In this document: positions 1 through 29,037 of the stretch, piece by piece | How positions within the stretch are numbered: position 1 is the stretch's first letter | How the letters are laid out: each line of letters begins with the position of its first letter | Assembly: GCF_042477335.2 (NCBI RefSeq) | Contig: NC_091256.1 | Location: 41,185,001-41,249,000 of the forward strand | Source of the DNA: Ovis canadensis | Lineage: Eukaryota; Chordata; Mammalia; Artiodactyla; Bovidae | Reading direction: 5' to 3' | Length of the DNA: 64,000 nucleotides | Made by a program: the position numbers and the translations under genes | The notes under the pieces: model-generated | Told to the model about the DNA's origin: nothing | What the model saw: only the letters and a program-made list of their open reading frames with translations | Databases searched by the model: none

Positions 1-612
1 GTGAGAGACTTTATTTTTTTGGACTCCAAAATCATTGTAGATGGTGAATGTAGCCATGAAATTAAAAGACACTTGCTCCTTGGAAGAAAAGTTATGACCA
101 ACCTAGACAGCATGTTAAAAAGCAGAGACATTACTTTGCCAACAAAGGTCTGTCTAGTCAAAGCTATAGTTTTTCCAGTAGTCATGTATGGATGTGAGAG
201 TTGGACTGTGAAGAAGGCTGAGCACCGAAGAATTGATGCTTTTGAATTGTGGTGTTGGAGAAGACTCTTGAGAGTCCCCTGGACTGCAAGGAGATCCAAC
301 CAGTCCATCCTAAAGGAAATCAGTCCTGACTATTCATTGGAAGGACTGATGTTGAAGCTGAAACTCCAATCCTTTGGCCACCTGATGTGAAGAACTGACT
401 CATTTGAAAAGACCCTCCTGCTGGGAAAGATTGAAGGCAGAAGGAGAAGGGGACGACAGAGGATGAGATGGCTGGATGGCATCACTGACTCGATGGACGT
501 GAGTCTGAGTGAACTCTGGGAGTTGGTGATGGACAGGGAGGCCTGGCGTGCTGCGGTCCATGGAGTCACAAAGAGTCAGACATGACTAAGCGACTGAGGT
601 GAACTGAACTGA
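1..612 (+). mobile_element. BovB (RTE) LINE, 3' part
   Basis: The first 390 bases read open and encode the C-terminal part of a BovB reverse transcriptase-like protein, with the recurrent string VVMYGCESWTVKKAEHRRID followed by [20 protein letters not shown]. The same protein segment recurs in at least eight other places in the window. The frame stops at the TGA after GHLM. The untranslated BovB 3' end follows and finishes in an ACTGAACTGA tail near 610. The 5' part lies outside the window. Confidence 0.95.
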
Positions 613-747
613 GAGACACTGATGAGGAAGGGGCATCCACCCCTCTCCTGTGTTTTTCCTTGTTGCAGAGTAGTTTATTGGTCTGATCTGAACATTCATT
701 TATATTTCCTGCTTTCATCCACATGTGCCAGGAATTATGTGAGGCCT

Positions 748-957
748 TTGTGTTGTTGTTGTTTAGTCACTAAGTCATGCTGACTCTTTTGCGACCCCAT
801 GGACTGTCCATGGGATTTTCCAGGCAAGAATACTGGAGTGGGTTTCCATTTCCTTCTGCAGGCGATCTTCCTGACCCAAGGATCAAACTCACAGCTCCTG
901 CCATGTCTCCTGCATTGCAGGTGGGTTCTTTACTGCTGAGCCCTGGGGAAGCCCCAT
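748..957 (-). mobile_element. Bov-tA/ART2A-type SINE
   Basis: On the minus strand this reads as a tRNA-derived head followed by a BovB-like 3' end (GACCCCATGGACTGT core on the plus strand, GGGATTTTCCAGGCAAGAAT, GGTGGGTTCTTTACTGCTGAG). The same pattern recurs more than a dozen times in the window. Confidence 0.9.
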
Positions 958-1169
958 TTGAGGCCTTGGGGGCACACTCAAACAGTAATGTCAACACCTA
1001 GGTTGTAGATGAATTCCTAGCAGGGAGCATATAAGCTGAGGTGCTAGGGTTTGCCCGGTGCACCTGTGCTGGACATAATCCAAGAGGAGGGGCAGGGGGA
1101 GGGTGGACACTTCCCTTGAATCACGAACCCATCCTTCTCACCCCAGCTCTGGAAGGGTCAGGAGGTCAA

Positions 1170-2755
1170 GGACAAAGGTTCTAAGATGGTAAACAACTTG
1201 TATACAGAAAACTTCAAAACATTGATGGAAGAATTAAATAAGAAACACTAACTGGAATGATAGTATCAATTCAATGGCCATGAATTTGAGCAAACTCCAG
1301 GAGATGGTGAAGGACAGGGAAGCCTGGTGCACTGCAGCCCTTGGGGTTGCAAAGAGTCAGACCCAACTTAGCAACTGAACAGAAAACAAAGTTGGAATGA
1401 AATGCCAAGTTCATACACTGGAAGCCAATATTGTTGAGATTTCCATACCACCCAAAGTGATGTACAGATTCACTGCAACACCTAGCAGAAATCCAATGGC
1501 ATTTTATAGAAAGGGGAATGTTTTTCTTAAAATATGTAGGGAACCACAGAGAACCCCAAAGAACCAAGGCAATCTTGATAGCAAGAACAGAGATGGAGGC
1601 TTCGCACTTCCTGAATTCAAAACATATATGCAAAGTCACAGCAATCAAAAGAGTGGGCGTAATGGCATCAAAACAGGCAGACAGACCCATAGACCAGAAG
1701 AACAGCTTTCAAAAACATTCTTACATACTGAAACAAGGACCTTCACTGATGTTCTAAGACTGTACAATGGAGAAAGAATAGTCTCTTCAGCAATCAACAG
1801 AATGAAAAGACATCCTACAGCATGGGAGAAAATATTTGCAAATCTAATATTTGAGAAAGGAACTAATATCCAAAATATATAATAAACTACTAGAACTCAA
1901 TTGCATCAGAAGGGACACACAATTCTGTTTTAAAATGGGCTACAAACTTGAATAAACATTCCTCCAAAGAAGATATATGAATAGCCAACACACGTATGAA
2001 AAGGTGCTCAACATCACTCATCATCCTGGAAATGCAAATCTAAACCACAGTGAGGTATCACCTCACACTCATTCAGATGTGCGTGTGAGTTAAAAAAAAA
2101 TTTTTTTTAAGAAAATCAAATTGGTGAAGATGTGGTTAATTGGAAATTTCATACACTGTTGGAGGGAATATAAAATGATACAGCCATTATGGGAGACAGT
2201 ATGAAGTTTCCTCAAAAAACTACAAACAGACCCTATCATATGATCCAGGAATCCCAATTCTGGTATATATCCAGAGGAAGAGAAGTCAGCATCCAGAAGA
2301 CAGATCTGCAATCTCATGATCACTGCAGCACTATACGCTATATACTATACACGATATCTGAGATAGAAATCTAGCCCCAGGTCCGCAGGCAGATGTATTA
2401 AGGAAGAAAATGTGGAGAATATATACAATGAGGTGCCATTCAGCCTTCATGGAAGATGGAGATCCTGTCATTTGCAGCATCATGAACAGAGGGGACACTG
2501 TTTGAAGCGAAATAAGCCACTCACAGAAGGACGGATACTGTATGAGGCATTGAAATGGGGTATCTGAAAGAACACTCCTAAGCAGGTTGTAGAAGGGTGG
2601 TTGCCAGCAGCAGGAGGAACTGGAAATGGGAGTGTTAAGTCCTGCAGGGTGAAAATGTTCTAAATATCTGCTGTACGAAAATGTGCATATAGTTAAAAAT
2701 AATGTACGGTACACGAACAGCTTGATGTTAGAGTTCACGTTATGTGTTTTAAATC
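1170..2755 (+). mobile_element. Degenerate L1 ORF2 3' fragment
   Basis: The segment carries decayed but recognisable LINE-1 ORF2 C-terminal coding and 3' sequence. Examples are the stretches around 1410-1560 (equivalent of VNIVEMSVLPKAIYRF at 25.2 kb), GAAAAGGTGCTCAACATCAC near 1998, and the ATGGGAGACAGTATG and ATATCCAGAGGAAG blocks. A 161-residue open stretch at 1397-1882 is an L1 remnant and not a gene. A BovB 3' fragment interrupts it at about 1256-1392. Confidence 0.8.
1256..1392 (+). mobile_element. Short BovB 3'-end insertion
   Basis: It contains only the last ~130 bp of BovB: the ATTCAATGGCCATGAATTTG block, GGTGAAGGACAGGGAAGCCT and a terminal GCAACTGAACAG. It lies inside the L1 fragment, so it inserted later. 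Confidence 0.75.
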
Positions 2756-3237
2756 ACAACTAAAAATAAGGGAAAATAAAATGCAAAGAAAAGAAAGAGG
2801 GGGGAAGGAAGGAAAGAGGAAAATGGAAGGTGTCTGGCGTGTCACAAAGGCAGCTGGAGACAAGGACAGAACAGAAAGTTCCTCTCGCAGGTCTTAAAGA
2901 AAATGCCTGTCCAGTGTTCACTCCAAGACGGCCCTGTGCTTTCTCATCCCCAATCAAGAAGGATCCCAAAGAGCATCCTACGTGAGGGCCTGACTGGGCT
3001 CAGGTGCTGTCCCCCGATTCCTGATCTTGAAACCAAACACCTGATCACCACGGGGCCTGGGTGCCTTCCTCTGTCTTCCTTCTGCTCCTCTAAAGTGTTT
3101 CCTCTTCAAGTCATGCCCAAGGATCTTGGTGCTGTTTCCACACCTGAGACCACTAGCCTCATCTTTGAGTTCTTATTTACAAAGATAAGCTATGGAAGCA
3201 ATGCAAGTGCCCATCAACAGAGTCACAGCACATGAAT
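2756..3237. other. No gene recognised
   Basis: The stretch begins purine-rich (GGGGGAAGGAAGGAAAGAGG near 2800) and continues as unique-looking sequence. Short open frames exist on both strands but show no family resemblance. A block near 3190-3220 resembles the L1 string about counting GCCCATCAAC. It separates the L1 remnant from the first exon-pair unit. Confidence 0.5.
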
Positions 3238-3445
3238 TCATATACAGACACTCCCACACCTATGTACACAGACTGACACCACCTAGCCATTTATACAGCT
3301 GCCTCCTGGGATGCTAATTCTTGGCCTCAGTTCTTTACCTGGAAAATCACATTCCATCCCCAGGTCCCATATTCCCAGTCCCAGCAGGAAACTGGAATCA
3401 GGTGGCTCTCCATAGGAAAACCAGCAAGAAAGCCCCATCTTTCAC

Positions 3446-3512
3446 ACCTTCTAAACTTTTCTCCCCAAGTGAGTTGAGGATACATACCGTTTTCACTTTC
3501 TACTGAGACCAC
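3446..3512 (-). CDS. Putative exon A, copy 1
   Basis: On the minus strand a pyrimidine-rich tract and TAATTGCAG precede the segment, and GTGAAAG follows as a weak donor. In phase 0 it translates without stop as VVSVESENGMYPQLTWGEKF plus RR and one spare base, so it ends in phase 1 like copies 2 and 3. The ESENG...Y stretch corresponds to AGENRTY in copy 2 and TNDENAT in copy 3. An internal ACG/GTATGT is a better donor consensus than the aligned one and could shorten the exon to about 26 bases. I do not recognise the gene; a secreted glycoprotein N-domain is possible. Coding status rests on conserved frame and splice sites only. Confidence 0.35.
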
Positions 3513-3983
3513 CTGCAATTACAGAAGAGAAAACACTGTGAGGATCAGATCACGTTGCGGCCCATTTGCCCAGGGTTTTGTTCATTTGGTGACAGTGGGA
3601 AACCAGGTGGGAAAGACTAGCAAAGTCAAGGGAACCCAGCAACAGAGCGAACCTCCTCAGGCCAAAAGGCATGAACTTTTCCTGGAGGATGTGTCTCCCA
3701 AGTTCATTTGTCTTGGCTGTGACAAGATTGTTTTCCCAGAAGGAAAAATTGCTGCAAGAATGAGAACTCACTACTGTACAGTGTGCAGCTGATGTTGTCA
3801 ATTTGTTAATTCCCCTTGGAATCCAGTATCATGAGTTGGTAATAGACTCCCACTCCATATTCTCCCACCCAAGGAAATTGTATGCATCATCCGGGATGTG
3901 CATGCTCAGTTTTCCGTATCTTAATTCCATGGAAAGAGATATAGATTAACCTTTCTATCTCAGGGTAAGAAAGGTGAGCTTAC

Positions 3984-4042
3984 CTTAGAGATGGGTGAAG
4001 CTTCCTCCTCTGCTCTGTCCTTCAACAAATCCTCCGGGGGAG
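3984..4042 (-). CDS. Putative exon B, copy 1
   Basis: The minus strand shows TCCTCTTAG, then 59 coding bases, then AAG/GTAAGC, a good donor. After two leading bases it encodes PPEDLLKDRAEEEASPISK. Copies 2 and 3 encode related but longer acidic peptides (23 and 25 codons) that keep P-x-x-LLxD and a final lysine. Lengths of 59, 71 and 77 bases are all 2 mod 3, so indels since duplication removed whole codons. That is the signature expected of coding sequence. The exon would be spliced to exon A 471 bases downstream. The product is unknown. Confidence 0.45.
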
Positions 4043-4126
4043 CTAAGAGGACACAGAGTAACTGTCAGCACCTTAGTTGTGTTCATCAGAAGCTACTCAA
4101 GTAGTTTGGCTTGATGTGGACAAGGG

Positions 4127-4364
4127 CTGGACATGCGTGCGTGCGTGCATGCTCAGTCACTTCAGTCACATCCAACTCTTTGTGACCCTATGAACTGTAG
4201 CCTGCCAGGCTCCTCTGTACATGGGATTCTCCAGGCAAGAAAACTGGAGTGGGTTACCACGTCCTCCTCCAGAGGATCTTTCCAACCCAGGGATCGAACC
4301 TGCGTCTTCTGTGGCTCCTGCATTGCAGGGGGATTTTTTCCTTTGAGCTACCAGGGAAGCCCTG
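4127..4364 (-). mobile_element. Bov-tA/ART2A-type SINE
   Basis: Antisense SINE with TGTGACCCTATGAACTGTAG, the CAGGCAAGAAAACTGGAGTG core and the terminal GAGCTACCAGGGAAGCCC. It starts with a short (GTGC)n-like run. It sits inside exon-pair unit copy 1, upstream (minus strand) of exon B. Confidence 0.9.
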
Positions 4365-4784
4365 ATTGTGCGCGTGCAGGTGGTTAATATGTTTAGATTA
4401 AGCTGCCTTTGGGGAATTTGGATGATGAAGACAAAAGAGTGAAAAAATGAAAACAGAGCCACTGACTTTCCATCTCTGGAGAACCTAATCACGTGAAATA
4501 GTCTGTAAAAGAGTAAGCACTAAAACGCATGCTCTGTTTCCCTGACAGAATCCCGTGACTCCTGCTGTCTGCTTCACAGCTGAACTAAATGCCACTGTCT
4601 CCTTATCTTCTTCCAAGATCACTTTTTCCTCCTGGATTCACAGTTGCTGCTACTGTATTTATAACCACATCTAGAAGATTTTGTACTTGATTAAAAGCAA
4701 ACGTCACTGGGGAGCCGAATTCCATGTGAGGCAAATCACGCTATTATATTTATTCACTTTTAGCTTGTCATAAGGAAAATAAAA

Positions 4785-7662
4785 AACGACACCCAGTTGT
4801 GGATATGACTGGTGATAGAAGCAAGGTCCAATGCTGTAAAGAGCAATATTGCATAGGAACCTGGAATGTTAGGTCCATGAATCAAGGCAAATTGGAAGTG
4901 GTCAAATAGAAGATGGCAAGAGTGAACGTCGACCTTCTAGGAATCAGCAAACCAAAATGGACTGGAATGGGTGAATTTAATTCAGATGACCATTATATCT
5001 ACTACTGTGGGCAGGAATCCCTTAGAAGAAATGGAGTAGCCATCATAGTCAACAAAAGAGTCCGAAATGCAGTACTTGGATGCAATCTCAAAAAACGACA
5101 GAATCATCTCTATTTGTTTCCAAGGCAAACCATTCAATATCATGGTAATCCAAGTCTATGCCCTGACCAGTAATGCTGAAGAAGCTGAATCTGAATGGTT
5201 CTATGAAGACCTACAAGACCGTTTAGAACTAACACCCCCAAAAGATGTCCTTTTCATTATAGGGGACTGGAATGCAAAAGTCGGAAGTCAAGAGTAACAG
5301 GCAAATTTGGCCTTGGAGTACAGAATGAAGCAGAGCAAAGGCTAATAGAGTTTTGCCGAGAAAACACACTGGTCATGGTAAACACCCTCTTCCAACAACA
5401 CAAGAGAAGACTCTACACGTGGACGTCACCAGATGGTCAATACCGAAATCAGATTGATTATATTCTTTGCAGCCAAAGATGGAGAAGCTCTATACAGTCA
5501 GCAAAAACAAGACTGGGAGCTGACTGTGGCTCAGATCATGAGCTCCTTATTGCTAAATTCAGACTTAAATTGAAGAAAGTGGGGAAAACCACTAGACCAT
5601 TCAAGTATGACCTAAATCAAATCCCTTATGATTATACAGTGGAAGTGAGAAATAGATTTAAGGGCCTAGATCTGATAGATAGAGTGCCTGATGAACTATG
5701 GACGGAGGATCGTGGCATTGTACAGGAAACAGGGATCAAGACCATCCTCAAGAAAAAGAAATGCAAAAAAGCAAAGTGGCTGTCTGAGAAATTTCTTACA
5801 AATAGCTGTGAAAAGAAGAGAAGTGAAGAGCAAAGGAGAAAAGGAAAGATATACCCATTTGAATGGGTAAGATATACCCATTTGAGTTCCAAAGAATAGC
5901 AAGGAGAGATAAGAAAGACTTCCTCCGCAATCAATGCAAAGAAATAGAGGAAAACAATAGAATGGGAAAGACTAGAGATCTCTTCAAGGAAATTAGAGAT
6001 ACCAAGGGAACATTTCATGCAAAGATGGGCTCCATAAAGGACAGAAATGGTATGGACCTAACAGAAGCAGAAGATATTAAGAAGAGGTGGCAAGAATACA
6101 TAAAACTGTACAAACAAGATATTCACGACCCAGATAATCATGATGGTATGATCACTCACCTAGAGCTCGACATACTGGAATGCGAAGTCAAGTGGGCCTT
6201 AGGAACCATCACTACAAACAAAGCTAGTGGAGGTGATGGAATTCCAGTGGAGCTATTTCAAATCTTGAAAGATGGTGCTGTGAAAGTGCTTCACTCAATA
6301 TGCCAGCACATTTGGAAAACTCAGAAGTGGCCACAGGACTGGAAAAGGTCAGTTTTCATTCCAATTCCAAAGAAAGGCAATGCCAAAGAATGCTCAAACT
6401 ACCGCACAGTTGCATGCATCTCACACGCTAGCAAAGTAATGCTCAAAATTCTCCAAGCCAGGCTTCAGCAATACGTGAACCGGGAACTTCCAGATGTTCA
6501 AGCTGGTTTTAGAAAAGGCAGAGGAACCAGAGATCAAATTGCCAACATCTGCTGGATCATGGAAAAAGCAAGAGAGTTCCAGAAAAACATCTATTTCTGC
6601 TTTATTGACTATGCCAAAGCCTTTGACTGTGTGGATCACAATAAACTGTGGAAAATTCTGAAAGAGATGGGAATAGCAGACCACCTGACCTGCCTCTTGA
6701 GAAATCTGTATGCAGGTCAGGAAGCAACAGTTAGAACTGGACATGGAACAACAGACTGGTTCCAAATAGGAAAAGGAGTGCGTCAAGACTGTATATTGTC
6801 ACTCTGCTTATTTAACTTCTATGCAGAGTACATCATGAGAAATGCTGGACTGGAAGAAGCACAAGCTGGAATCAAGATTGCTGGGAGAAATATCAATAAC
6901 CTCAGATATGCAGATGACACCACCCTTATGGCAGAAAGCAAAGAACTAAAGAGCCTCCTGATGAAGGTGAAATAGGAGAGCAAGAAAGTTGGCTTAAAGC
7001 TCAACATTCAGAAAACGAAGATCATGGCATCTGGTCCCATCACTTCATGGCAAATAGATAGGGAAACAGTGGAAACAGTGGCTGACTTTATTTTGGGGGG
7101 CACCAAAATCACTGCAGATGGTAATTGCAGCCATGAAATTAAGATGCTTGCTCTTTGGAAGGAAAGTTAGACAGCATATTAAAAAGCAGAGACATTACTT
7201 TGCCAACATAGCTCCGTCTAGTCAAGGCTATGGTTTTTCCAGTAGTTATGTATGGATGTGAGAGTTGGACTATAAAGAAAGCTGAGCACTAAAGAATTGA
7301 TGCTTTTGAACTGTGGTGTTGGAGAAGACTCTTGAGAGTCCCTTGGACTGCAAGGAGATCCAACCAGTCCATCCTAAAGGAGATCAGTCATTTGGAAGGA
7401 CTGATGTTGAAGCTGGAACTCCAATACTTTGGCCACCTGATGTGAAGAGCTGACTCATTGGAAAAGACCCTGATTTTGGGAGGGACTTGGGCCAGGAGGA
7501 GAAGGGGACGACAGAGGATGAGATGGTTGGATGGATTCATCGACTCAATGGACATCAGTTTGAGTAAACTCCAGGAGTTTGTGTTGGACAGGAAGGCCTG
7601 GCATGCTGTAGTTCATGGGGTCGCAAAGAGTCGGACACAACTTGAGCGACTGAACTGAAGTG
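4785..7662 (+). mobile_element. Near-full-length BovB LINE, inactivated
   Basis: The body runs from CACCCAGTTGTGGATATGAC to a GCGACTGAACTGAAGTG tail. It encodes an apurinic-type endonuclease part (ARVNVDLLGISKPKWTGMGE near 4915; FIIGDWNAKVG near 5260; DYILCSQRWRSSI near 5455) and then a reverse transcriptase (FIDYAKAFDCVDHNKLWKIL at about 6600; NNLRYADDTTLMAES at about 6895). The frame is broken several times: between 5173 and 5375, by a 23-bp duplication at 5846-5885, at 6975, and by a deletion near 7150. It lies between exon-pair copies 1 and 2. Confidence 0.95.
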
Positions 7663-8305
7663 AAGGAAAATCAAATATAAATGTTCAAAAATACTAAGAT
7701 CCTACTGCTTAAAAATTGACACTATCAACCATGTGCCATTTTCTTCCCCGTCTTCTTTTTGTAAACAATGTGTGCATGTCCACTGAGTTGGTGGCAGTTC
7801 ACACTCCCATGTGCCATCCAACCAGAGGAACAGTTCATTACAGAGAGGAAGGCTGGAGTGAGTGCTGATGTCCTAACCCAGCTGTGCAGGAGGTTTGTAA
7901 AACGGCTGATGGGCACCAGGACTAACAAATTCATTTAGACTCCTTGCCACTGAGCCATCGGTGAGTGTTTACAGGATTCTAGCATTTCTAGGGCTTGTGG
8001 CAGTATTATCCAATACAATAAATACCTCCCTCATTCTTGCTGTGTTTGGTCAAATGCTAAACAATGACCCCAACACTGAAAGATGTTGACCTGCATTGTC
8101 CTATGTGGAACCTCACATCTCTCAGAAACTGTGAGCTGAGTACAGTGTGCTGGCTTTCTGGGTATGTTTCACACGCTTGACTCTGCCCAAGTTGGCTGTT
8201 GAGTGTACTGACAGCTGCCCTGGGTTCTGTGAGCCACCTTAGAGTGATGGGCAGTGTCTGGGACCTCTGGAGAGTCTAGTGCTGCCAGGCATGTACACAG
8301 AGCAG
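7663..8305. other. No gene recognised
   Basis: Unique-looking sequence between the BovB tail and exon-pair unit copy 2. Short open frames only. No repeat family or conserved protein was recognised. Confidence 0.5.
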
Positions 8306-8833
8306 AGACCCCCTTGCCTCAGGACTGATGATCCTGTGGCTGTGTGATAAGGACAGGTCAGTGGTCCAGAGCATCACACTGGGACCCTTGTCTGGGTTCC
8401 CATTTTGACTTTTTGCTTTAGGAAGTCATGAGTTTGGGCCGTTTATCTCTGTCCCATCTCTCTCTGAGGAGAGAGAATATTATCCAAACCTCTGGGAACA
8501 GCTGCGGTGAAGGAAGAATGAGGTGTTGCTTTTTTTTTTAAACAGAAAGTTGACAGGAGTGTTCTGTGCAAGTGGGAAATAGCTCTTGGGGAATCAACAC
8601 ATTTATACACACAGATTGACAATCATACCCATAACCTCACACGTGGAAAGCCTGTTAGTCCTCATACACGCAAGCAAACATCATCTAAGTGACCTCACAG
8701 CTTCCGGGGACTACACAAGTTCAACGCTTTTTTGAGGGAAATTCATTTATTTCACTAAATCCTTCACTCTCTTTCCTAGTGGGAACCCAGAATCAGGGTG
8801 TTTCTCCAAGCAAAGCGGGCAAGACAGCCCCAC

Positions 8834-8912
8834 ACTCTTCATCACTTAGCTTTCTCCTCTGAAGAGGAGTGGTTTCAGAATACGTACGGTTTTCACCAGC
8901 TCTTGCATCCTC
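8834..8912 (-). CDS. Putative exon A, copy 2
   Basis: The minus strand has TCTCTCTTCCCAG before the segment and GTGGGGC after it. In phase 0 it reads EDARAGENRTYSETTPLQRR then KLSDEE and one spare base, 79 bases and stop-free. NRT is a potential N-glycosylation sequon, matched in position by NAT in copy 3. The TTPL string is shared with copy 3. The final acidic DEE matches DADEE of copy 3. Frame and phase agree with the other two copies. The gene was not identified. Confidence 0.45.
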
Positions 8913-9110
8913 CTGGGAAGAGAGAGGAGAGGACACTGTGAGGATTCACAGAGAACAGAGAACAAACGAGGTTACCGACGCGGAGAAGGAAAGGTTCCCC
9001 TTTCCTCAGGGCCACGAGTGTTGTACAAATTTAAAGGGTACAAACTACTTTGTATAAAATAGAGGAGCAACCAGGACGTATTGTAGAGCTCAGATAATTA
9101 GAGCCATTAT

Positions 9111-9464
9111 CTTTTTCTTTTTTTAAAAGATTTGTTTAATTTTTGGCTAGGCTGGGTCTGCATTGCTATGTGCAGGCTTTCTCTATTTGTGGTGAGTGAG
9201 GGCTTCTCTTCATTGTGGTGCGTGGGCTTCTCCCTGTGGTGGTATTCTTGTTGTGGACCACAGGCTCTAGGAGGGTTTGCGTCACTAGTTGTGGCTCACG
9301 GGCTCGGTATTAGCAGCTCCTGTGCGCTATAGTGCAGGCTCAGTAGTTGAGGCACATGGGCTTAGTTGCTCTGCAGCATGTGGTATCTTCCCAGACCAGG
9401 GATTGAACCCATGTCCCCTGCATTGGCAGGTGGATTCTTAACCATTAGACCATCAGGGAAGCCC
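9111..9464 (-). mobile_element. CHR-type tRNA-derived SINE
   Basis: Antisense SINE whose minus strand begins GGGCTTCCCTGATGGTCTAA and ends in an A-rich tail (plus-strand T-rich start at 9111). Perfect 10-bp target duplications GAGCCATTAT flank it at 9101-9110 and 9465-9474. Confidence 0.9.
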
Positions 9465-9474
9465 GAGCCATTAT

Positions 9475-9725
9475 TTTCTAACAACTTTGTATGCAGTATA
9501 ATTGGAAAAACACTTAACTACTATGCTATACATTTAAACTAATATAATATTGTAAATCAACTAAAGAAAGTGAAAGTGAAGTTGCTCAGTCATGTCCGAC
9601 TCTTTGCTACCCCATGGACTGTAGCCCACCAGGCTCCTCTGTCCATGGGATTTTCCAGGCAAGAATAATGGAATGGGTTGCCATTTCCTTCTCCAAAATC
9701 AACTATAATTCAATTTAAAAAATTT
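9475..9725 (+). mobile_element. L1 3'-terminal fragment
   Basis: The A/T-rich text (ACTATGCTATACATTTAAAC, TATTGTAAATCAACTATAAT once the nested SINE is removed, then CAATTTAAAAAATTT) matches the 3' ends of ruminant L1 copies also seen at 22.1-22.2 and 46.2-46.3 kb. A Bov-A SINE interrupts it. Confidence 0.6.
9564..9695 (-). mobile_element. Bov-A SINE monomer
   Basis: A single Bov-A unit (GAAGTTGCTCAGTCATGTCC, CCATGGACTGTAGCCCACCA, GCCATTTCCTTCTCC). Perfect target duplications AAATCAACTA lie at 9554-9563 and 9696-9705. Confidence 0.9.
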
Positions 9726-10168
9726 AGACCTCTGGGGATGGCAGCATCCTGTGAACTTGGGTACAGTTAGTTCTTTGGGTGACTTTGGGAAACCAGATTG
9801 GAAACAGGTTGTTGAGTTTATGGCCCCAGTGAAAACAGTGAAGACACCTGCAGAAAACTCTTTGACTTTTCATGGAAGAACTTCCCAAGTCCATGTTGAC
9901 AGGCAAATACAAATTTTTTTTTTCCAGTGGGAAAATATTCTGTTCGGGGAAAAAGCTCACTATCTTCCAGTTTGTAAGTGATGCTGTCATTTTTGAAATG
10001 TCCTTTCAACCAAGTATCTGTTGGTAATAGACTTTCATTCAACATTCCCCCGATCAAGGAAATTGTAAGTATCATCTATATTGAACATTGTCAGATGTCT
10101 GAATTTGCTTGGGAAGGAAAAACAGATTAACCAACATTTTCATCTCAGGTAAAGAAAGGGGAGCTTAC

Positions 10169-10239
10169 CTTGGCAGTAAGTGGGATCTCTTCCTCTGTCC
10201 TGTCGTCAGTCAGGTCCTCCAACAGGTCCACAGGGGGAG
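10169..10239 (-). CDS. Putative exon B, copy 2
   Basis: The acceptor is TTCTCTTAG and the donor AAG/GTAAGC. After two leading bases it encodes 23 codons beginning PPVDLLEDLTDD and ending EEEIPLTAK. The PPxDLLxD start and the terminal lysine agree with copy 1. The exon is 71 bases long, phase 1-0. Splicing to exon A copy 2 (8912) would remove about 1.26 kb, much of it the CHR, L1 and Bov-A insertions. The product was not identified; the composition is acidic and hydrophilic, as in a linker or secreted N-domain. Confidence 0.45.
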
Positions 10240-10940
10240 CTAAGAGAACACAGAGTAAATATCAGCATGCTGGTGGTGGCGCTCAGGAGCTAGAGAGAGT
10301 TCACTGCTGTGCAAGTGGGATGGGTGTGTGTGGGTGAGGGTGGTTAATAAATATAGACTGAACTGTGGTTTGGCATTATGTTGGTGGACTGAAAGAAGGC
10401 AAAGGTGAGAAGAAAGGAAAAAAGTGAAAAAAAGAAGCCTTTGGTTTTCTAGCTATGGGGATCATGCTCAATATGAAATAGTCTGAAAAACAAGGACCGC
10501 TCTTGACCCAGGACTGATGATCCTGTGGCTGAGTGATAAGTACAGGTCAGTGTTCCAGGGTGTCCACACTGGAACCCTCGCTTGGGTTCCCATTTTGACT
10601 TTTCCTTTTAAGAGGTCAAGAGCTTGGGCCATTTATCTTCTGCCCCATCTCCATCCGAGGAGAGAGAATATTATCCACATTTCCAGGAACATCTGTGTGA
10701 GGGAAGAATGAGTGACTGTACAGACAGTGAGCAGTGGTGATGAGATTTTTTTTTTTTTAACAGAACCTTGACAGGTGTATCGTGCTGTGTGAGTGGGAAA
10801 TAGCTCCTGAGGAAACAGGCACTCTTCCACACACACAGATTCACAGTCACACCAACAGGCTCACACAGGGACACTCAATTTTCATAGACACAAACCCACA
10901 GCTGATAACCATTCTCGTAGTTTCCAGGGACTGTGCAACA

Positions 10941-11058
10941 TGGGGTTGCTCTTTGCTGCATGCAGGCTCAGTTGCAACCCCATGCACTGCAGCCCACCAG
11001 GCTCTTCTGTCCATGGTGTTCCCCAGGCAAGAATATGGGAGTGCGTTGCCATTCCCAG
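10941..11058 (-). mobile_element. Bov-A-type SINE fragment
   Basis: Contains GCAACCCCATGCACTGCAGC, CCACCAGGCTCTTCTGTCCA and CAGGCAAGAATATGGGAGTG. Truncated on both sides and clearly diverged. It interrupts the homology between copies 2 and 3 around 8650. Confidence 0.75.
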
Positions 11059-11160
11059 TGGGAAATCAATTTCATTTGCTTCATCCCCACCCCTCATTCC
11101 CTGTAGCAACCCAGAATGGGGTGAGTGTCTCTCCAATTCCAGCAGGCAGGCAAGTCCCAC

Positions 11161-11245
11161 CTTCTTCGTCAGCATCAGCTAGATTTCCCGTTAGCAGAGG
11201 AGTGGTTCCAACACATGTAGCATTTTCATCATTTGTCCCATTAAC
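11161..11245 (-). CDS. Putative exon A, copy 3
   Basis: The minus strand has CTCTTTTCTCTGATTGCAG, a strong acceptor, then 85 bases, then GTGGGAC. In phase 0 it encodes VNGTNDENATCVGTTPLLTG followed by NLADADEE and one spare base. NGT and NAT are two N-glycosylation sequons. It contains a single cysteine that copies 1 and 2 lack. It is the longest of the three A exons (85, 79, 67 bases, all 1 mod 3). Phase 0-1 fits the following B-type exon, which starts with two bases. The gene was not identified. Confidence 0.45.
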
Positions 11246-11487
11246 CTGCAATCAGAGAAAAGAGAAGGCTGTGAAGGTCACAGCATCCTCTGCACTGCGG
11301 GCTCAGGTCTGCCCTCTGTTGGTGACCTTAGGAAACCATCTGTAAAACCACAGTTGAGTCAGTTTCCTCAAAAGAAAACTGTGAAGACTCTTTTGGAAAA
11401 GGCTTGAGCTTTTCATGGAAGATTTTCCAGGTAAGTCCATGCTGACCAGAAAAAAAAAAAAAAAATCATTATCAAGAAGGAATATTT

Positions 11488-11824
11488 CAGGCTTCCCTGG
11501 TGTCTCAGTGGTAAAGAATCTGCCTGCCAATGCAGGAAACACGAGGTCAGTCCCTGGTCGGGGAAGATCCCGCATGCCGCAGAGCAGCTGGGGCCGGGCG
11601 CCAAAACTATTGAGCCTGCGCTCTGGAGCCTGGGAGCTGCAAGCACTGAAGCCAGCGAGCCCTAGAGCCCGTGCTCCGCAGCGAGAGAAGCCACCGCAAT
11701 GAGAGGCCCCCACACCGCAACTGGAGAGCGGCCCCTGCTCTCTGCAGCTAGAGAAAAGCCTGCGCAGCAGTGAAGACCCAGCATAGCTAAAAACAAATAA
11801 ATAAACAGAAATTATATTTTAAAA
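11488..11824 (+). mobile_element. CHR-type tRNA-derived SINE
   Basis: Begins CAGGCTTCCCTGGTGTCTCA, has a GC-rich middle (GGGGCCGGGCGCC) and ends A-rich. Target duplications AAGAAGGAATATTT lie at 11474-11487 and 11825-11838, 14 bp and perfect. Confidence 0.92.
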
Positions 11825-12048
11825 AAGAAGGAATATTTTCTGCAGAAGAAAATGCTCATTCTGCTCAGTTTGCCAATCTTTCAAATGTTCTTTGAATCAG
11901 TTGTTGATAACAAACTTTTACCCAGCATTTCCCCAAACAAGGCGTTTGTATATGTCATCTCTAACGTACAGTGTCACAATTTCATGTCTGAATTAGTTAA
12001 AAAGAAACAAAGCAAATTTTTATCTCAGATAAAGAAAGGCGAATTTAC

Positions 12049-12125
12049 CTTGGGGGTAGGCGGGGCCTTCTCGTCTGCCCTGTCACTGGGCAGGTCCAGG
12101 TCTTCCAACAGGGACTCAGTGGGAG
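12049..12125 (-). CDS. Putative exon B, copy 3
   Basis: The acceptor is GTCCTCTTAG and the donor CCAAG/GTAAAT. After two bases it encodes 25 codons starting PTESLLEDLDLPSD and ending APPTPK. Relative to copy 1 it has six extra codons and no frame change. It is the most upstream exon of the cluster on its strand. Exon A copy 3 would be joined across about 0.8 kb, in which the CHR SINE lies. No signal-peptide exon was recognised further upstream. Could be a module of a ruminant placental secreted protein, but no decisive motif is present. Confidence 0.45.
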
Positions 12126-12275
12126 CTAAGAGGACATAGAGTAAGAGTCAGGATGTCGGTGGTGCTGCTCAGGAATTACTCAGCAAGCCTTATCTGACTG
12201 GACGTGGGGTGGGTGTGTGTGGATGCGAGAATTATGGGCTGAGCTGCTATTAGGCCTCGTCCTAGGTGGACTGAA

Positions 12276-12486
12276 GGAAGGCTAAGTGGTGGCTCAGATA
12301 GTAAAGAATCTGCCTGCAAGGCAACAGACCTGGGTTCAATTCCTGGGTCGGGAAGATCCCTGGAAGAAGGAAATGGCAACCCACGCTAGTATTCTTTGGG
12401 AAATCACATGAACAGGGGAACCTGGTGGCTACAGTCCATGAGGTCACAAACAGTTGGACACAACTGAGCAACCAACACTTTCACAC
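12276..12486 (+). mobile_element. Bov-tA/ART2A-type SINE
   Basis: Contains GTGGCTCAGATAGTAAAGAA, GAAATGGCAACCCACGCTAG and GTTGGACACAACTGAGCAAC. It sits inside exon-pair unit copy 3; homology to copies 1 and 2 resumes after it. Confidence 0.9.
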
Positions 12487-12749
12487 TTCCACAGAAGAGA
12501 GGAACTTGGAAAAAAAAATGAGCAACTGAGCCTTCAGCTTTCAAGTTCATGGGAACATATTCAATTGAATAGAGTCAGTCTCAAAAAGGGCACACTAAAA
12601 TGCAGGCTGTTTCAGTGTGAGTGTCTCGTGGCTCCTCCTGCCCATTTTAAAGTTCAGCCAAATTTCCATTTTTCCTGAAATATTGCAGGACAGTTTCACA
12701 CACGCTGCTACTATGTTCCTCATCTATTGACTGGATTTTTTTTTAACTT

Positions 12750-13036
12750 CTTATATATATTTGAAATATACATAATATTTATCCTTGTAATAATTTGTAG
12801 GTAGTCAGTTCAGCGATCTTACCTTCACAATGCAATGCATCCTTCACTACTGTCTGTACATAATTTTTTCATAATATCTTATATAACCTCTGTACCCATT
12901 CAGAAATAACTCCACCTTCACCCATGGTTCCACGTTTTAGTGCTCACTGCTTTCTGTCTTTGATTGTCTGGCTATTCTGTTTACCTCATATATATGGAAT
13001 AATACTTTGTTTTTCTGTGCCTGCTTGATGTCACGA

Positions 13037-13076
<40 letters not shown>

Positions 13077-13270
13077 ATCTATGTTTGAATATGTAACATA
13101 TTTCAAAATTTACTTCCTCTTTCTGGCTGAATATTATTTAACTGCAAGTATATATTTCATTTTATTTATCCATTGATCACAGTGAAATTTGGGGTAGGTT
13201 CCATCTTTTGATGCTTCTGTGAACAGTGGTGTACAGATATCTGTATGGTGACACCCGACATTATATATTT
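12750..13270 (-). mobile_element. Old L1 3' fragment
   Basis: The plus strand resembles the reverse complement of L1 3' sequence: CTCATATATATGGAATAATA, a GGCTGAATATTATTTAACTG block, TTTATCCATTGATCAC, and GATGCTTCTGTGAACAGTGG. A (TA)n run has expanded inside it. Confidence 0.55.
13040..13072. repeat. (TA)n microsatellite
   Basis: Sixteen or so uninterrupted TA dinucleotides. Likely length-polymorphic. Confidence 0.95.
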
Positions 13271-13330
13271 GTCAGAACTCACCCAATGTCACAGCACAAT
13301 GAGTGAATTTTAATGTAAACTTGGACTTTT

Positions 13331-13442
13331 AATTAATAATGTACCAGCATTGTTTTGCTAATTTTAACAAATGTACTACAGTATAATTAATTAATAATGT
13401 ACCAGCATTGTTTTGCTGATTTTAACAAATGTACTACAGTAA
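13331..13442. repeat. 58-bp direct tandem repeat, two copies
   Basis: TTAATAATGTACCAGCATTG starts at 13333 and again at 13391, followed in both by TTTTGCT-A/G-ATTTTAACAAATG. The two copies differ at about one position, so the duplication looks recent. Confidence 0.92.
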
Positions 13443-13449
13443 TGTTCAA

Positions 13450-14534
13450 TATAGTTAATAGGGGAATCTGGAGGGACTGAATATGGGAACTTTCTGTTTT
13501 ATCTGTTCAACTTTTATTTTAGTATGATTTGGTGCTAAATAATATCTAATAACATTTAAAAATCTGGAAATGTGGCTTCAGGGATAAATCTATTTCAGCT
13601 AATATTCAAAAACTAGCTAAGGTCTAAACATGACTGAGGCCATCTTAACTATTAAACATAAACTGAATTTTGAGTTTTAAATTCATTATCACTTTATAGT
13701 TATAAAATTACCAACTGAGTCAGTCAATTTGAAGTTTCAAATAATCTAAGAGAAGAATATGGCTTAGAATTTGTATGGTTCTTTCTTAAACATGGAACAC
13801 TGAATGAGCTAGAATAATCGCTCTTGAATGAACTTAGAGTCACTTTTCACAGTACCTTCTTCTGAGTCATTGATAGGGTGCACCCTCTTATGTGGCCAGA
13901 AGTGGATTATTCTGGCCCAGCTAGTGGGTGATTTTCTTGACATTAGATGAATGTTTCTTCTTTCATTCCTGAAGCAAGATCCTGGAAAATGAATTATAGC
14001 AGACAGAACTACTACCTTGATTTCAGAAGATGACAATGAAATTGCTAGTAATTGGCTCACAGGCCAGTCTTTGATCCCTTATTAACAGACAGCCCAGCAG
14101 AGCCTCCAGAGTCAAAGTTGAACTTAGGAAGATCTTGCCTTTTAGGTTTTGTGGGCAAACACCCTTGTGTAGCAGAGACATTCTAGATATACGGCAAAGC
14201 AGTGACCATGCCTGACGACCTGATTTCTAATCCCCTGTATTAGAAGCACACACCTGAGAAAGTGATGCAGATTTCTCTGTACCCCAATTCCCTGCTCTGA
14301 GATGTAGAAATGTTAATATGACCCACATATTCATATTGTGTAAAGCGGCCAAAAAGGATTCATTACAGGTAAAGCCTTAAGAAAAATAAAGGACGGCTGC
14401 TTCATGATTGTTTTATGGGTATTCACTTATTGAATGCCTGCAAGAATAAGCTAGGCATGTGCTAGTGGTTGATCCAGAGAGGTGATTTGGATGGTGCCAG
14501 AGCAAGGGAGGAGGGAAGCTTTCTCTCCAGCCTA
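13450..14534. other. No gene recognised
   Basis: A/T-rich, then mixed sequence. An 83-codon open frame on the minus strand (13809-14060) has no recognisable domain. No repeat family was recognised. Confidence 0.45.
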
Positions 14535-14825
14535 GGCATAGGAAGGATGCTTTACAGCTCTCAAAGAACATCTGTTACTGTCTTCTCTGGTCCCCACATC
14601 AGTCCAGTTTCAAGTGAAAGCCATAAAAAGCAGGTGCTGTAATCCATGTTTTCAGTGGTAGACACTGAAATTTAGAGAAACTTTTCAAGAGTCACAACTA
14701 TGATGAGTGATGGATCTGGGACAGGAATGTACTTGCTTGCGGATGACAGAGTTCCCTGAATCCCTGAGAAGCACCCAAGACTGAGATAATGTGCTGCACC
14801 TTTGAATCAAGAGCTCCCCTCCCCT

Positions 14826-14963
14826 TGAGTGGAGTGAGTGAAGTCGCTCAGTCGTGTCCGACTCTTTGCGACCCCATGGACTGTAGCCCAGCAGGCTCCT
14901 CCATCCATGGAATTTTCTAGGCAAGAGTAGTAGAGCGGGTTGCCATTTCCTCCTCCAGGGGAC
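14826..14963 (-). mobile_element. Bov-A SINE monomer
   Basis: GTGAAGTCGCTCAGTCGTGT, CCCCATGGACTGTAGCCCAG and GCCATTTCCTCCTCC mark a Bov-A unit present only in duplication copy I, so it inserted after the duplication. Confidence 0.9.
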
Positions 14964-15137
14964 CTCATTCTCAAATCCTCCCACCCCAGGTTTACGGCAG
15001 GTGAGACTTGAAGCCCCGAGGAGATGTCTGAACCAAGATGACAGTCTTCATCCTCTTCCAGTATGTTGCCTCCATGTTTCAATCCCTGATCCATATACAG
15101 GAGTTTCCTGCAAATAAATCCCCTCTAATGGACCAAC

Positions 15138-15248
15138 ATCACTGATTCAATGGACACTCTGGGAAATGGTGAAGGACGGGGAGGCCTGGTGTGCTGCAGT
15201 CCATGGGGTCACAAAGAGTCAGACTTGACTTAGTGACTGAACAGCAAC
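15138..15248 (+). mobile_element. Short BovB 3'-end insertion
   Basis: Only the last ~110 bp of BovB: ACTGATTCAATGGACACTCT, GGTGAAGGACGGGGAGGCCT, TTAGTGACTGAACAGCAAC. It is absent from duplication copy II. GGGACCAGAGG follows it and GGACCAACATC precedes it, suggesting a short target duplication. Confidence 0.85.
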
Positions 15249-16733
15249 AAGGGACCAGAGGAAGTCCAGCTGTGGCCATCCTCCCCAGCTTCTCCACATT
15301 GTCACTGTCTCCTATGGTACCTTCACAATGACCAGGTGACTGACTCAAGTAACCAGTGAGTGGTCTGTTTGGTCTGAAGTGCTCTCAAGATGGCTTCTGA
15401 GCATCAGAGGGCTTCAGATCAGCCATCAGATGGCTTCACAATGGCCTAAGCCAAGTGCCCCACTCTGCCAAGAATTATCCTCCCTTCAGCTGAGCAAACC
15501 TGTGTGAGCAGTTAATGTGAATTCCCTAGGGAGATGGCCATCCGGGCTGGTGCTTCCGTGGTTTAGGAAATCTAGTCTGTGATGCTGAGTGTCTCACTGA
15601 CTTTCTATCTAGGTACATGTTGAGCAGCCAAGTCCTGTTTGAGAATGGGCAGGAGATCAAGTCTTTCTTCACCAAAATCCAGTCTCTACTCTATAAACAT
15701 TTCCTCCATCTATAGATCCTGTAGAGGCAGGAACAGAGTAGCATACTCCCCTCCATGTCCTCAGCCTGAACACCCTGCCCCACGTCAAACCTTCCCTCCT
15801 TCAGTTGCCAAATATTCATTCCTTAATTTGATGGCACTGTCCCTTACCACACTCTCAGGCAACACCCAAGGAGTCTATGATCCTGCCCTCATCAAACCAT
15901 GGAAATCCTGCCTGGAAATCCCAGTTGCTTTCCATTCTAAAAATTTCTGTATTTAAACTGCCATTCTTTGGTTTCAGATTTCGACATCTACATTCAGAAG
16001 AGCTAGCTGTTCCCCTTCCCTGTGATGTTTATTGCAGGGGTGGCATCAAGATTCTCCTGCTTCAATGAGAGTTGTGTGATATAGTTCCTGTGTCTCTGCT
16101 CCAGAAGAGTGTGCACAAAATTGATGAATTAAGACACAGAATTTTTTCTTGAGAGCAGAATTAAAAAGTACCTTAAGTAATACAACAACGTTAAATAATA
16201 GATTTATATCAATAAGTTTATATGTAGAGTGGTGGAAATGAAAAAAATGGTGAGGAGAATATTTTCGCTCAAAGTTAATCTCCCATTTGAAGGAACAGCC
16301 TTTAGAGGATCAATATAATGTGCCTAAAAATAACAATTCGGATTTCCCATTTTCAAACACTCGAGGTGTGAAGGTGAGAGCTTCTCACCTGTTACCAAAT
16401 TTGAACCTCTCAGCTCATAGACTGACAGCTGGAATGGAAGACAGGATGGGTATCGTCACATTACTATGGAAACCAGTCATCATAGAACTTTCAGAGTGAA
16501 GGCATCTCTGCCCACTCTGAGTCCACCTGCTCTGTCTAGACTAGTGTGTGTTCCCATGGACAAGTGTGAGATTTCAAAGTGAACATTTCATTTCAAAAAT
16601 TGAATCCCAGCCTCACACATTATTGCTCTCTGATTAAGAAAACAAGTTATGTGAGAGGAAAAGATCTCCCCAAATACCATTGATAAGTCAAAATTTTAGG
16701 ATGAGGAGGAACAAAACATGGGGAAGACTTTAC

Positions 16734-18680
16734 ATAGGAAGGATGCTTTACTGCTCATGGAGAATATCTATTATCTTCTCATCTGATCCCTGCGACAGCC
16801 CAGTTGCAGGGGAAGACAAATGCAAAGCAGGGGCTATAATCCATATTTTTTCAGTGGAAGAATTCACAGTTTAGAATAACTTTCCAAGGGTCACAACAAT
16901 GAGTGAATCTAGGACAGGAATGTTCTTGGTTCCTTGAGGACAGAGATCTCTGAACCCCTGATATCCACCCAGAGCTGAGATCATGACCTGGAGCCTTGAA
17001 TCAAGAGTCCCCCTCACTCTCTCCCTCAAATCCTCCTTCTGGTGAGTGTTGATACCCTACGGAGATGTCTGAGCCAAGATAACCATCCAAAATCTCATCC
17101 AGCATTTTCATCCATCTTTCAATCCCTGATCAATGATAGAGGAGTTTCCTTCAGACAAAGCCCCTCTGAAGAACCAGGGGAAAGACAGCTGCCACGCTGC
17201 TATCCTCCCCAGCATTTACACATCGTCAGCTGCCACAGCTGCTATCCTCCCCAGCATTTACACATCGTCAGCTCTCTCCCAGGACACTTTCACAATGACC
17301 AGGTGACTACCTCAAGTCACCAGTGGTCCATTTGGCTCTCAAGATGGCTCAGAGTTCAGAACAGTCTAAATTAAATGCCATATGATGGCTCTGCCAAGAA
17401 TTAGCTTCCTTTAGCTGACCAACCCTGGATGAGCTGTTAATGTGAACTCACTGGGGAGGTGGCCGTCTGGGCAGGTGCTTTGGTCGTTTAGGAAATCTAG
17501 TCTGTGATGCTGAATGTCTCACTGACTTTAGATCTAGGTATATGTTTGAGTAGCCTGGACCAAGGCCTGTCTGAGAATGGGCAGAGGCTCAAGTCCTTCT
17601 TCACCAAAATCCAGTTTCTATAAACTCCTCATCCTTCGATAGACCCTGTAGTAACAGGGACACAGTCCTATATTCCCTTTGAGCATCCCCTCCATATCCT
17701 CAGCCTGAACACCTCATCCCAGGACTCATCTTTGAGTACTGCAGACAGACACTCCTTCCCTGAACCAGTTGCCAAATGTTCATTCCTAAATTCAATGGCA
17801 CTGTCCCTTCTTACCACACTCCCAGGTAACACCCAAGCAGCCTGTGATCTTGTCCTTATTAACCCACGGAAATCCTGCCTGGAAAGTCCAGTTGCTTTCC
17901 TTTTTACATTTCTCCTGCTAATATTTGGTTTCAGATTTTGACATCTACATTCAGGAGAGTTGAGCTGAAATTCCCCTTTTCTGTCTATCGCAGGGGTAGC
18001 ATCAAGATTCCCCTGCTTCGATGAGAGCTGTGTGATGTTTTTTGTGTCTGTGCTCTACAAGAGTGTGTACAAAATTGGCACTAGGAACAGCATATTTTTC
18101 TAAATCTAGGAAAATATTTGAGGCAGCCAGCTTGACAGCAGAATTGTAAAAATACCTTAAGTAATACAACAAAGCTGTATAATAGACTTATAAGTCTATA
18201 GAAAAATTACAGTGGCAGAAATGGGAAAAAAAGGTGAGAAAAAAATATATTTTCACTCAAAGTTAATTATCCATTTGAAGAAATAACCTGCCTTTAGAGT
18301 GTTGATATAAACGTACCTCCAAAATAACAATTCAGATTTCCCATTCTCAAACACTCGAGGTGTGAGGGTGACAGCTTCTCATCTGTCACCAAATTTGAAT
18401 CTCTCAGCTCACAGAGTGACAGTTGGAATGGAAGGTAGGATGTGCATCATCACATTACCATGGAAACCAGTCATCATAGAACTTTCAGAGTGAAGGCAGC
18501 CCTGCTCTGTGCAGACTGTTGCGTGTTTTCATGGACAAGTTTGGCATTTCAGAGTCAACATTTTACTTCAAAAATTGAATCCCAGGACCGCACATTATTA
18601 CTCTCTGATTAAGAAAACAAGTTATATGAGAAAAAAAGACCTCCCCAAATAGAGTTGCTATTGAAATTTTCCGAGTGAAG
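16734..18680 (+). repeat. ~2-kb tandem duplication, copy II
   Basis: Second copy of 14535-16733, without the two retroelement insertions and with an internal 41-bp duplication at 17186-17268. Divergence by eye is moderate, with scattered substitutions and small indels, so the event is not recent. Confidence 0.88.
17186..17268. repeat. 41/42-bp direct repeat, two copies
   Basis: CAGCTGCCACGCTGCTATCC at 17186 recurs as CAGCTGCCACAGCTGCTATC at 17227; both continue TCCCCAGCATTTACACATCG. Only one equivalent is present in duplication copy I (near 15268). Confidence 0.95.
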
Positions 18681-18765
18681 GAAAAAACGAATATGTTGAG
18701 AAAAAAAAGAAGTTTCATTCTTGGTGGAAATACCATTTTTACTATTTCTGAGTCAGTAGACCTTT

Positions 18766-19796: not shown

Positions 19797-20088
19797 GCTG
19801 CTGCTGCTGCTGCTAAGTTGCTTCAGTCATGTCTGACTCTGTGCGACCCCCACAGACAGCAGGCAGCCCACCAGGTTCCCCCGTCCTTGGGATTCTCCAG
19901 GCAAGAACCCTGGAGTGGATTGCCATTTCCTTCTCCAATGCATGAAAGTGGAAAGTGAAAATGAAAGTGAAGTCGCTCAGTCATGCCCGACTCTTAGTGA
20001 CCTCATGGACTGCAGCCAACCAGGCTCCTCCGTTGATGGGATTTTCCAGGCAAGAGTACTGGAGTGGGTTGCCATTGCCTTCTCCAAA
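19797..20088 (-). mobile_element. Bov-A2 SINE (dimer), antisense
   Basis: Starts with a (TGC)n run, then two Bov-A units joined by GAAAGTGGAAAGTGAAAATG. ATATATGTG occurs just before (near 19787) and just after (20088), a likely target duplication. It lies immediately upstream of the BovB at 20100. Confidence 0.92.
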
Positions 20089-20099
20089 TATATGTGTTG

Positions 20100-20965
20100 C
20101 TACCTCATGAGAAACGCTGGACTGGAAGAAACACAAGCTGGAGTCAAGATTACCAGGAGAAATATCAATAACCTCAGATATGCAGATGACACCACCCTTA
20201 TGGCAGAAAGTGAAGAGGAACTAAAAAGCCTCTTGATGAAAGTGAAAGAGGAGAGTGAAAAAGTTGGCTTAAAGCTCAATATTCAGAAAACGAAGATCAT
20301 GGCATCCGGTCCCATCACTTCATGGGAAATAGATGGGGAAACAATGGAAACAGTGTCAGACTTTATTTTTCTGGGCTCCAAAATCACTGCAGATAGTGAC
20401 TGCAGCCATGAAATTAAAAGACGCTTACTCCTTGGAAGAAAAGTTATGAGCAACCTAGATAGCATATTCAAAAGCAGAGACATTACTTTGCCGACTAAGG
20501 TCCGTCTAGTCAAGGCTATGGTTTTTCCTGTGGTCATGTATGGATGTGAGAGTTGGACTGTGAAGAAGGCTGAGCGCTGAAGAACTGATGCTTTTGAACT
20601 GTGGTGTTGGAGAAGACTCTTGAGAGTCCCTTGGACTGCAAGGAGATCCAACCAGTCCATTCTGAAGGAGATCAGCCCTGGGATTTCTTTGGAGGGAATA
20701 ATGCTGAAGCTGAAACTCCAGTACTTTGGCCACCTCATGCGAAGAGTTGACTCATTGGAAAAGACTCTGATGCTGGGAGGGATTGGGGGCAGGAGGAGAA
20801 GAGGACGACCAAGGATGAGATGGCTGGATGGCATCACTGATTCAATGGCCGTGAGTCTGAGTGAACTCCGGGAGTTTGTGATGGACAGGGAGGCCTGGCG
20901 TGCTGCGATTCATGGGGTCACAGAGTCGGACACAACTGAGCGACTGAACTGAACTGAACTGAACC
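20100..20965 (+). mobile_element. 5'-truncated BovB LINE
   Basis: Starts within the RT domain (MRNAGLEETQAGVKITRRNI), carries the YADDTTLMAESEEELKSLLM block and ends with the ACTGAACTGAACTGAA tail. The frame is open to a TGA at 20578 where other copies have a CGA-type codon. Confidence 0.95.
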
Positions 20966-27549: not shown

Positions 27550-29037
27550 TTCAGTTCAGTTCAGTTCAGTTCAGTTCAGTCGCTCAGTCGTGTCCGACTC
27601 TTTGCAACCCCATGAATCGCAGCACGCCAGGCCTCCCTGTCCATCACCATCTCCCGGAGTTCACTCAGACTCACGGTCATCAAGTCAGTGATGCCACCCA
27701 GCCATCTCATCCTCTGTCGTCCCTTTCTCCTCCTGCCCCCAATCCCTCCCAGCATCAGAGTCTTTTCCAATGAGTCAACTCTTCGCATCAGGTGGCCAAA
27801 GTACCGGAGTTTCAGCTTCAGCATCATTCCTTCCAAAGAAATCCCAGGGCTGATCTCCTTCAGAATAGATTGATTGGATCTCCTTGCAGTCCAAGGGACT
27901 CTCAAGAGTCTTCTCCAACACCACAGTTCAAAAGCATCAATTCTTCAGCACTCAGCCTTCTTCACAGTCCAACTCTCACATCCATACATGACCACAGGAA
28001 AATCCACAGCCTTGACTAGACGGACCTTAGTCGGCCAAGTAATGTCTCTGCTTTTGAATATACTGTCTAGGTTGATCATAACTTTTCTTCCAAGGAGTAA
28101 GCAGTCACCATCTGCAGTGATTTTGGAGCCCAGAAAAATAAAGTCTGACACTGTTTCCACTGTTTCCCCATCTATTTCCCATGAAGTGATGGGACCGGAT
28201 GCCATGATCTTCGTTTTCTGATTGTTGAGCTTTAAGCCAACTTTTTCGCTCTCCTCTTTCACTTTCATCAAGAGGCTTTTTAGCTCCTCTTCAATTTCTG
28301 CCATAAGGGTGGTGTCATCTGCATATCTGAGGTTATTGAGATTTCTCCCGGCAATCTTGATTCCGGCTTGTGTTTCTTCCAGTCCAGCGTTTCTCATGAT
28401 GTACCCTGCATAGAAGTTAAATAAGCAGGGTGACAATATACAGCCTTGACACACTCCTTTTCCTATTTGGAACCAGTCTGTTGTTCCATGTCCAGTTCTA
28501 ACTGTTGCTTCCTGACCTGCATACAGATTTCTCAAGAGGCAGGTCAGGTGGTCTGCTATTCCCATCCCTCTCAGAATTTTCCACAGTTTATTGTGATCCA
28601 CACAGTCAAATACTTTGGCATAGTCACTAAAGCAGAAATAGACGTTTTTCTGGAACTCTCTTGCTTTTTCCATGATCCAGCAGATGTTGGCAATTTGATC
28701 TCTGGTTCCTCTGCCTTTTCTAAAACCAGCTTGAACATCAGGAAGTTCCCGGTTCACGTATTGCTGAAGCCTGGGTTGGAGAATTTTGAGCATTACTTTA
28801 CCAGCATGTGAGATGAGTGCAATTGTGCAGTAGTTTGAGCATTCTTTTGCATTGCCTTTCTTTGGGATTGGAATGAAAACTGACCTTTTGCAGTCCTGTG
28901 GCCACTGCTGAGTTTTCCAAATGTGCTGGCATATTGAGTGCAGCACTTTCACAGCATCATCTTTCAGGATTGGAAACAGCTTCACTGCAATTCCATCACC
29001 TCCACTAGCTTTGTTCGTACTGATGCTTTGTAAGGCC
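27550..29037 (-). mobile_element. 5'-truncated BovB LINE, antisense
   Basis: The plus strand starts with six TTCAG-type tail repeats. On the minus strand an open frame of 367 codons (29048-27945) spans the RT domain: SGGDGIAVKLFPILKDDAVK, FSDYAKVFDCVDHNKLWKIL, LRYADDTTLMAEIEEELKSL. It is one of the longer RT frames in the window. A short deletion removes the CSHEIKRR equivalent near 28100. Confidence 0.95.

Follow-up and report, generated by a model that had tools for sequence, protein, structure and literature searches.

Probable exons of a minus-strand gene

The window analyzed here, a 64,000-nucleotide stretch of the Ovis canadensis contig NC_091256.1, carries eight segments on its minus strand that we name, in coding order, E1, E2, B3, A3, B2, A2, B1, and A1. 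Their joined translation corresponds to residues 1-165 of P0001 (165/165 identical), a 243-aa protein annotated as hypothetical in Ovis aries, of which 51 residues lie before B3 and 78 after A1. This identity is not independent support, since P0001 may derive from this genome or from one very much like it. No convincing match to the last 78 residues of P0001 (166-243) was found in the 64-kb window among the matches listed, suggesting that the gene runs off the window at position 1.

The chain begins with the coding part of exon 1, E1 (18317..18344, minus strand, as are all exons given here), which encodes MGNLNCYFG plus one base (residues 1-9 of P0001) and ends at the donor GAG/GTACGT. The score of this donor (8.63) is equalled or exceeded by 0.9% of 3347 GT sites; this and all other donor scores are rough. 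E2 (13856..13981; 126 nt) ends in phase 1 and, once joined to E1, yields residues 10-51, followed by a weak donor (AAG/GTACTG, score 3.77). Then come three pairs of short exons, in which B exons go from phase 1 to 0 and A exons from phase 0 to 1. In the first pair, the models of sheep, Rangifer, Moschus, and Odocoileus contain B3 (12049..12125; 77 nt) and that of Capra does not. A3 (11161..11245; 85 nt), with donor AAG/GTGGGA, is missing from P0006 (Odocoileus) and P0004 (Capra). B2 (10169..10239; 71 nt) and B1 (3984..4042; 59 nt) both have translations that match P0001. Their partners are A2 (8888..8912; 25 nt), with donor ACC/GTACGT (score 2.96) and EDARAGEN/P in P0001, and A1 (3488..3512; 25 nt), with donor ACG/GTATGT (score 7.19) and VVSVESEN/E in P0001.

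The three pairs had been picked out in an original prediction as segments of 77, 85, 71, 79, 59, and 67 bp (B3, A3, B2, A2, B1, and A1). With the coordinates proposed then, AG precedes and GT follows all six, none contains a stop in its assigned phase, and together they form a single open frame of 145 codons. This open joined frame exceeds chance: after dinucleotide shuffling it stayed open in 0/5000 sets for the segments as first drawn and in 10/5000 for the corrected ones, and random AG...GT segments of equal length (drawn from the minus strand of window positions 1-18344, exons not excluded) were open in 5/3000 and 29/3000 cases, respectively. The proposed order of in-frame coding exons, B3-A3-B2-A2-B1-A1, is also that of the annotated sheep protein. 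The prediction was probably right about six internal exons and missed the two upstream, E1 and E2, as well as the last coding part, beyond the window. Judging from the gene models, the six segments appear to be genuine exons, belonging to a protein-coding gene that is uncharacterised and has so far been seen only in ruminants.

Splice donors of the A exons

The A exons of the prediction and those of the gene models differ in where they end. A2 and A1 are 25 nt long (eight codons plus one base) in 5/5 aligned models (P0001-P0004 and P0006), and P0005 also has short versions of both. A3 alone uses a distal donor (11161), 60 nt beyond the proximal position, where its GT has been lost and the site reads CT. 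The prediction had placed the ends of A2 and A1 at 8834 and 3446, whereas the models end them at 8888 and 3488, so that the ends first proposed are probably wrong.

The two extensions are not equivalent. For A2 (8834..8887, minus strand), the distal GT aligns with the distal donor of A3, as had been proposed for all copies, although the extension appears in no gene model seen. Its score is close to that of the proximal donor (3.57 vs 2.96), and the distal donor at 8834 may therefore be an alternative one. The extension of A1 (3446..3487, minus strand) is unsupported: its GT lies off the aligned position, behind a gap of 5 nt, with a score of 0.1, and the site in A1 that does align with the distal donors reads AAG/AT instead of GT. 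The gap falls inside the extension and sets A1 apart from A2 and A3, its exact placement being uncertain at identities of 0.46-0.57. The claim that lengths change by whole codons only therefore fails for A1 as drawn; it holds for the B exons, where gaps measure 6, 12, and 18 nt.

Could the long forms of A2 and A1 nonetheless be real or alternative exon ends? Both keep the frame, the distal donor of A2 scores slightly above the proximal one, and the Bos protein P0008 (described below) has a single long unit among its short A-like ones. The homology of this long unit to the A3 extension is weakly supported, with 26/500 shuffles as good. Yet the short forms found throughout the models and the displaced, low-scoring GT of A1 argue against this, and the extension shows no purifying signal in the coding frame (pN/pS 1.2); we regard the long forms as unlikely. 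With the short forms retained for A2 and A1, the comparison suggests that reading splice frames from sequence alone can recover real exons, yet misplace their ends where a second GT fits.

Tandem copies and selection between them

That the pairs are direct tandem copies, as first proposed, is borne out by alignments covering both exons and introns. The regions of B2 and B3 align at 68.6% over 433 bp, those of B1 and B2 at 69.7% over 320 bp, and those of A2 and A3 at 65.3% over 225 bp; the A-to-B introns at 8313-8642 and 10502-10866 reach 74.6% over 366 bp. The B-A units are hence homologous including their introns and lie in direct order, each starting and ending in phase 1. Profile searches of the window recovered three B and three A copies and no further convincing one, the next best matches having E values of 0.12 and 0.025. 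Between A2 and B1 lies a LINE-type element (4782..7664, plus strand) that carries a reverse transcriptase domain (RVT_1 in 5863-6972) and is 89% identical to 41805-44711; it explains in large part the larger spacing between pairs 2 and 1.

The neighbourhood contains other repeats and elements. A direct repeat of 55 bp (98% identity, copies 58 bp apart) occupies positions 13329-13441 of the window, within the intron that separates E2 from B3. LINE-type reverse-transcriptase stretches were found at 42441-44210, 46429-47517, 19837-20577, and 5863-6972 on the plus strand and at 27948-29069 on the minus strand, one of them open for 590 codons. An open, histone-like retrocopy resembling H3 lies at 30697-31119 (plus strand; Pfam Histone, 2e-29), with a length that we take to be close to that of full H3. 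The reverse-transcriptase and histone matches come from a scan of 10 of the 77 long ORFs. Exon 1 was itself part of a tandem duplication of about 2 kb (14537..18687, minus strand), with matching pieces within 14537-16715 and 16733-18687 at 73-77% identity. The second copy of the exon, inside intron 1 (16323..16350, minus strand), is decayed: it keeps the ATG, but has an in-frame stop and has lost the donor. At the dead copy the sequences are locally more alike than the ~73% identity of the duplication; it is a single case and does not serve as a control set.

Comparing the three copies for nonsynonymous and synonymous change, a check put forward with the original prediction, gave different outcomes for B and A exons. 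In a DNA-only alignment, pN/pS of the B exons was 0.38 (bootstrap 0.23-0.57) in the coding frame and 0.76 and 1.57 in the others. When the aligned flanks were cut into 1151 overlapping windows of 75 nt, none had a pN/pS as low as the B exons, and 74 were stop-free in all copies. Protein-guided alignment of B and short A exons pooled gave 0.49 (0.31-0.77). Those single pairs for which a ratio could be computed lay between 0.23 and 0.69, and A2/A1 taken by itself reached 1.55. Short A exons considered separately showed no clear constraint (pN/pS 0.85, on few sites). The low pN/pS of the B exons is partly due to a high denominator, since pS is 0.60 in them vs 0.36-0.46 in their flanks, and the exon identity of B3 and B2 (0.72) is little above that of the flanks (0.70 and 0.64). 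Overall, the substitution pattern indicates that the B exons are constrained between copies.

A possible ruminant gene family with a variable number of modules

We searched for relatives with the joined peptide and found P0001 in Ovis aries, P0002 and P0005 in Rangifer, P0003 in Moschus, P0004 in Capra, and P0006 in Odocoileus, all of them annotated and uncharacterised, together with the fragment P0007 at E 0.78 (7/37 candidates at E up to 10). A search with P0001 returned six of these matches and nothing new (6/2412 candidates). A profile built from five models reached two Bos proteins, P0008 (331 aa, E 3.4e-16) and P0009 (206 aa, E 3.7e-14), and the weak fragments P0010, P0011, and P0007 (E 0.29-0.46), making 11 of 7997 scored candidates, with scoring limited to candidates sharing most words. 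No relative outside ruminants was found in this short-exact-word search, in which the fragments P0007, P0010, and P0011 have no assigned organism. Scans of viral and prokaryotic contigs, collections that say nothing on ruminants, gave 178 and 50 pattern matches, none of them confirmed. Among the literature matches listed, in a coverage that leaves out most subscription journals, no paper named this gene.

Exon order is common to the five ruminant models. Those of sheep, reindeer, and musk deer contain three modules; P0004 is without B3-A3 and P0006 (isoform X3) without A3-B2, and both stay in frame in these annotation models. At the C-terminus, 62-75 of 77-78 residues are kept across the sheep, goat, reindeer, white-tailed deer, and musk deer models. 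The second Rangifer model, P0005, reads past the A3 donor, departs from the others in its tail after A1, and may represent an isoform or a prediction error.

The Bos proteins are built alike. P0008 (LOC133227545 isoform X3, Bos javanicus) and P0009 (Bos indicus) share with the sheep protein the MGNLNC start, the WPHNRVHP segment, and alternating B-A-like units; P0008 also has the acidic C-terminus, while the end of P0009 differs from that of the other models. Counted by eye, P0008 contains about six B-A-like units, including a two-unit block that is repeated (30/32 and 30/31 residues) and is taken to have been duplicated recently. Identity to the sheep protein is nevertheless only 34% for P0008 and 38% for P0009, compared to 85% (reindeer) and 87% for the two aligned deer proteins. 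Given this difference, P0008 is most likely a paralog of the sheep gene.

The conserved features bear on whether the locus could be a decaying pseudogene, or a set of chance open segments chosen by automated gene finders. The models are indeed hypothetical or uncharacterised proteins without domains, some donors (E2 and A2) score low, and the second copy of exon 1 is dead. Such decay or chance would however have to coexist with a joined frame present in the models of all five species, with their preserved C-terminus and with the constraint on B exons, and we consider it improbable. The better reading is that of a coding exon chain, in which the six segments would be internal exons of one gene.

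The protein that this gene would encode has no predicted fold. None of P0001-P0011 has a Pfam family above the cut-off, and nothing in PDB matched with an E value of 1 or less. P0001 is acidic (59 D+E vs 21 K+R), and AlphaFold predicts a single helix at 218-228 with a mean pLDDT of 47.1 from 7 sequences, a shallow alignment that may lower pLDDT. The MGNLNC start is presumably of a lipid-anchor motif type, so the N-terminus of the sheep protein is possibly lipid-anchored. The acidic B-A stretch could act as a linker, its length set by the number of modules spliced in.

The growth of an N-terminal exon array in ruminants recalls the trophoblast Kunitz domain protein (TKDP) genes. PMC3426482 describes TKDP genes as ruminant-restricted, with 4 to 12 exons, the first of which is separated from the C-terminal portion by a variable number of N-terminal exon units; according to this paper and PMC1817651, these genes grew in ruminants through repeated N-terminal exons. 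What defines a TKDP is its Kunitz domain together with tripartite units, which lie ahead of the Kunitz exon. The gene described here resembles them in lineage and in the style of its array, with a variable number of N-terminal exon units. It differs in having two-exon units, and no Kunitz domain was seen, a distinction drawn from the published description of TKDP. For the Kunitz domain, 0/11 related proteins (P0001-P0011) gave a Pfam match, a tblastn search of the window with BPTI gave a best E of 0.32, and the terminal exons were judged from protein models. Moreover, the C-terminal tail of the models is acidic, and inspection by eye showed no signal peptide in them. That the locus is part of a TKDP gene is thus very improbable, and we rejected membership on the absence of a Kunitz domain and on units made of two exons rather than three parts. 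The hint at placental expression in the original prediction likewise finds no support, as neither Kunitz nor any other Pfam domain passes the cut-off in any of the 11 proteins.

In our preferred explanation, which we hold with high confidence, the six segments are internal exons of one minus-strand gene. A two-exon block, B then A, would have undergone two tandem duplications, introns included, forming a symmetric module with phase 1 at both outer ends. Because B starts and A ends in phase 1, the downstream frame is preserved when any whole number of B-A pairs is gained, lost, or skipped. After duplication the A exons would have diverged in donor choice, A1 and A2 using the proximal GT (25 nt) and A3 the distal one, and all six exons would be joined in one mRNA, as in the annotation models. 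The product would be a protein with an acidic, unfolded linker of variable length, possibly anchored to lipid at its N-terminus. That genes grow by copying symmetric class 1-1 exon modules in tandem is well known. As in other genes built of such modules, a phase 1-1 unit has been copied with its introns and the frame is kept at any copy number. In contrast to them, the unit here is a pair of short exons encoding an acidic stretch for which no fold is predicted, and its copies differ in their choice of donor.

More tentatively, the locus may belong to a ruminant-born orphan gene family in which protein length evolves, and is perhaps regulated, by counting two-exon modules, one exon of which switches between 25 and 85 nt. 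The locus would offer a clean example of a coding exon pair that multiplies in tandem with its phase kept, and its copies appear to have diverged enough to reveal selection acting on one member of the pair and a change of donor in its partner.
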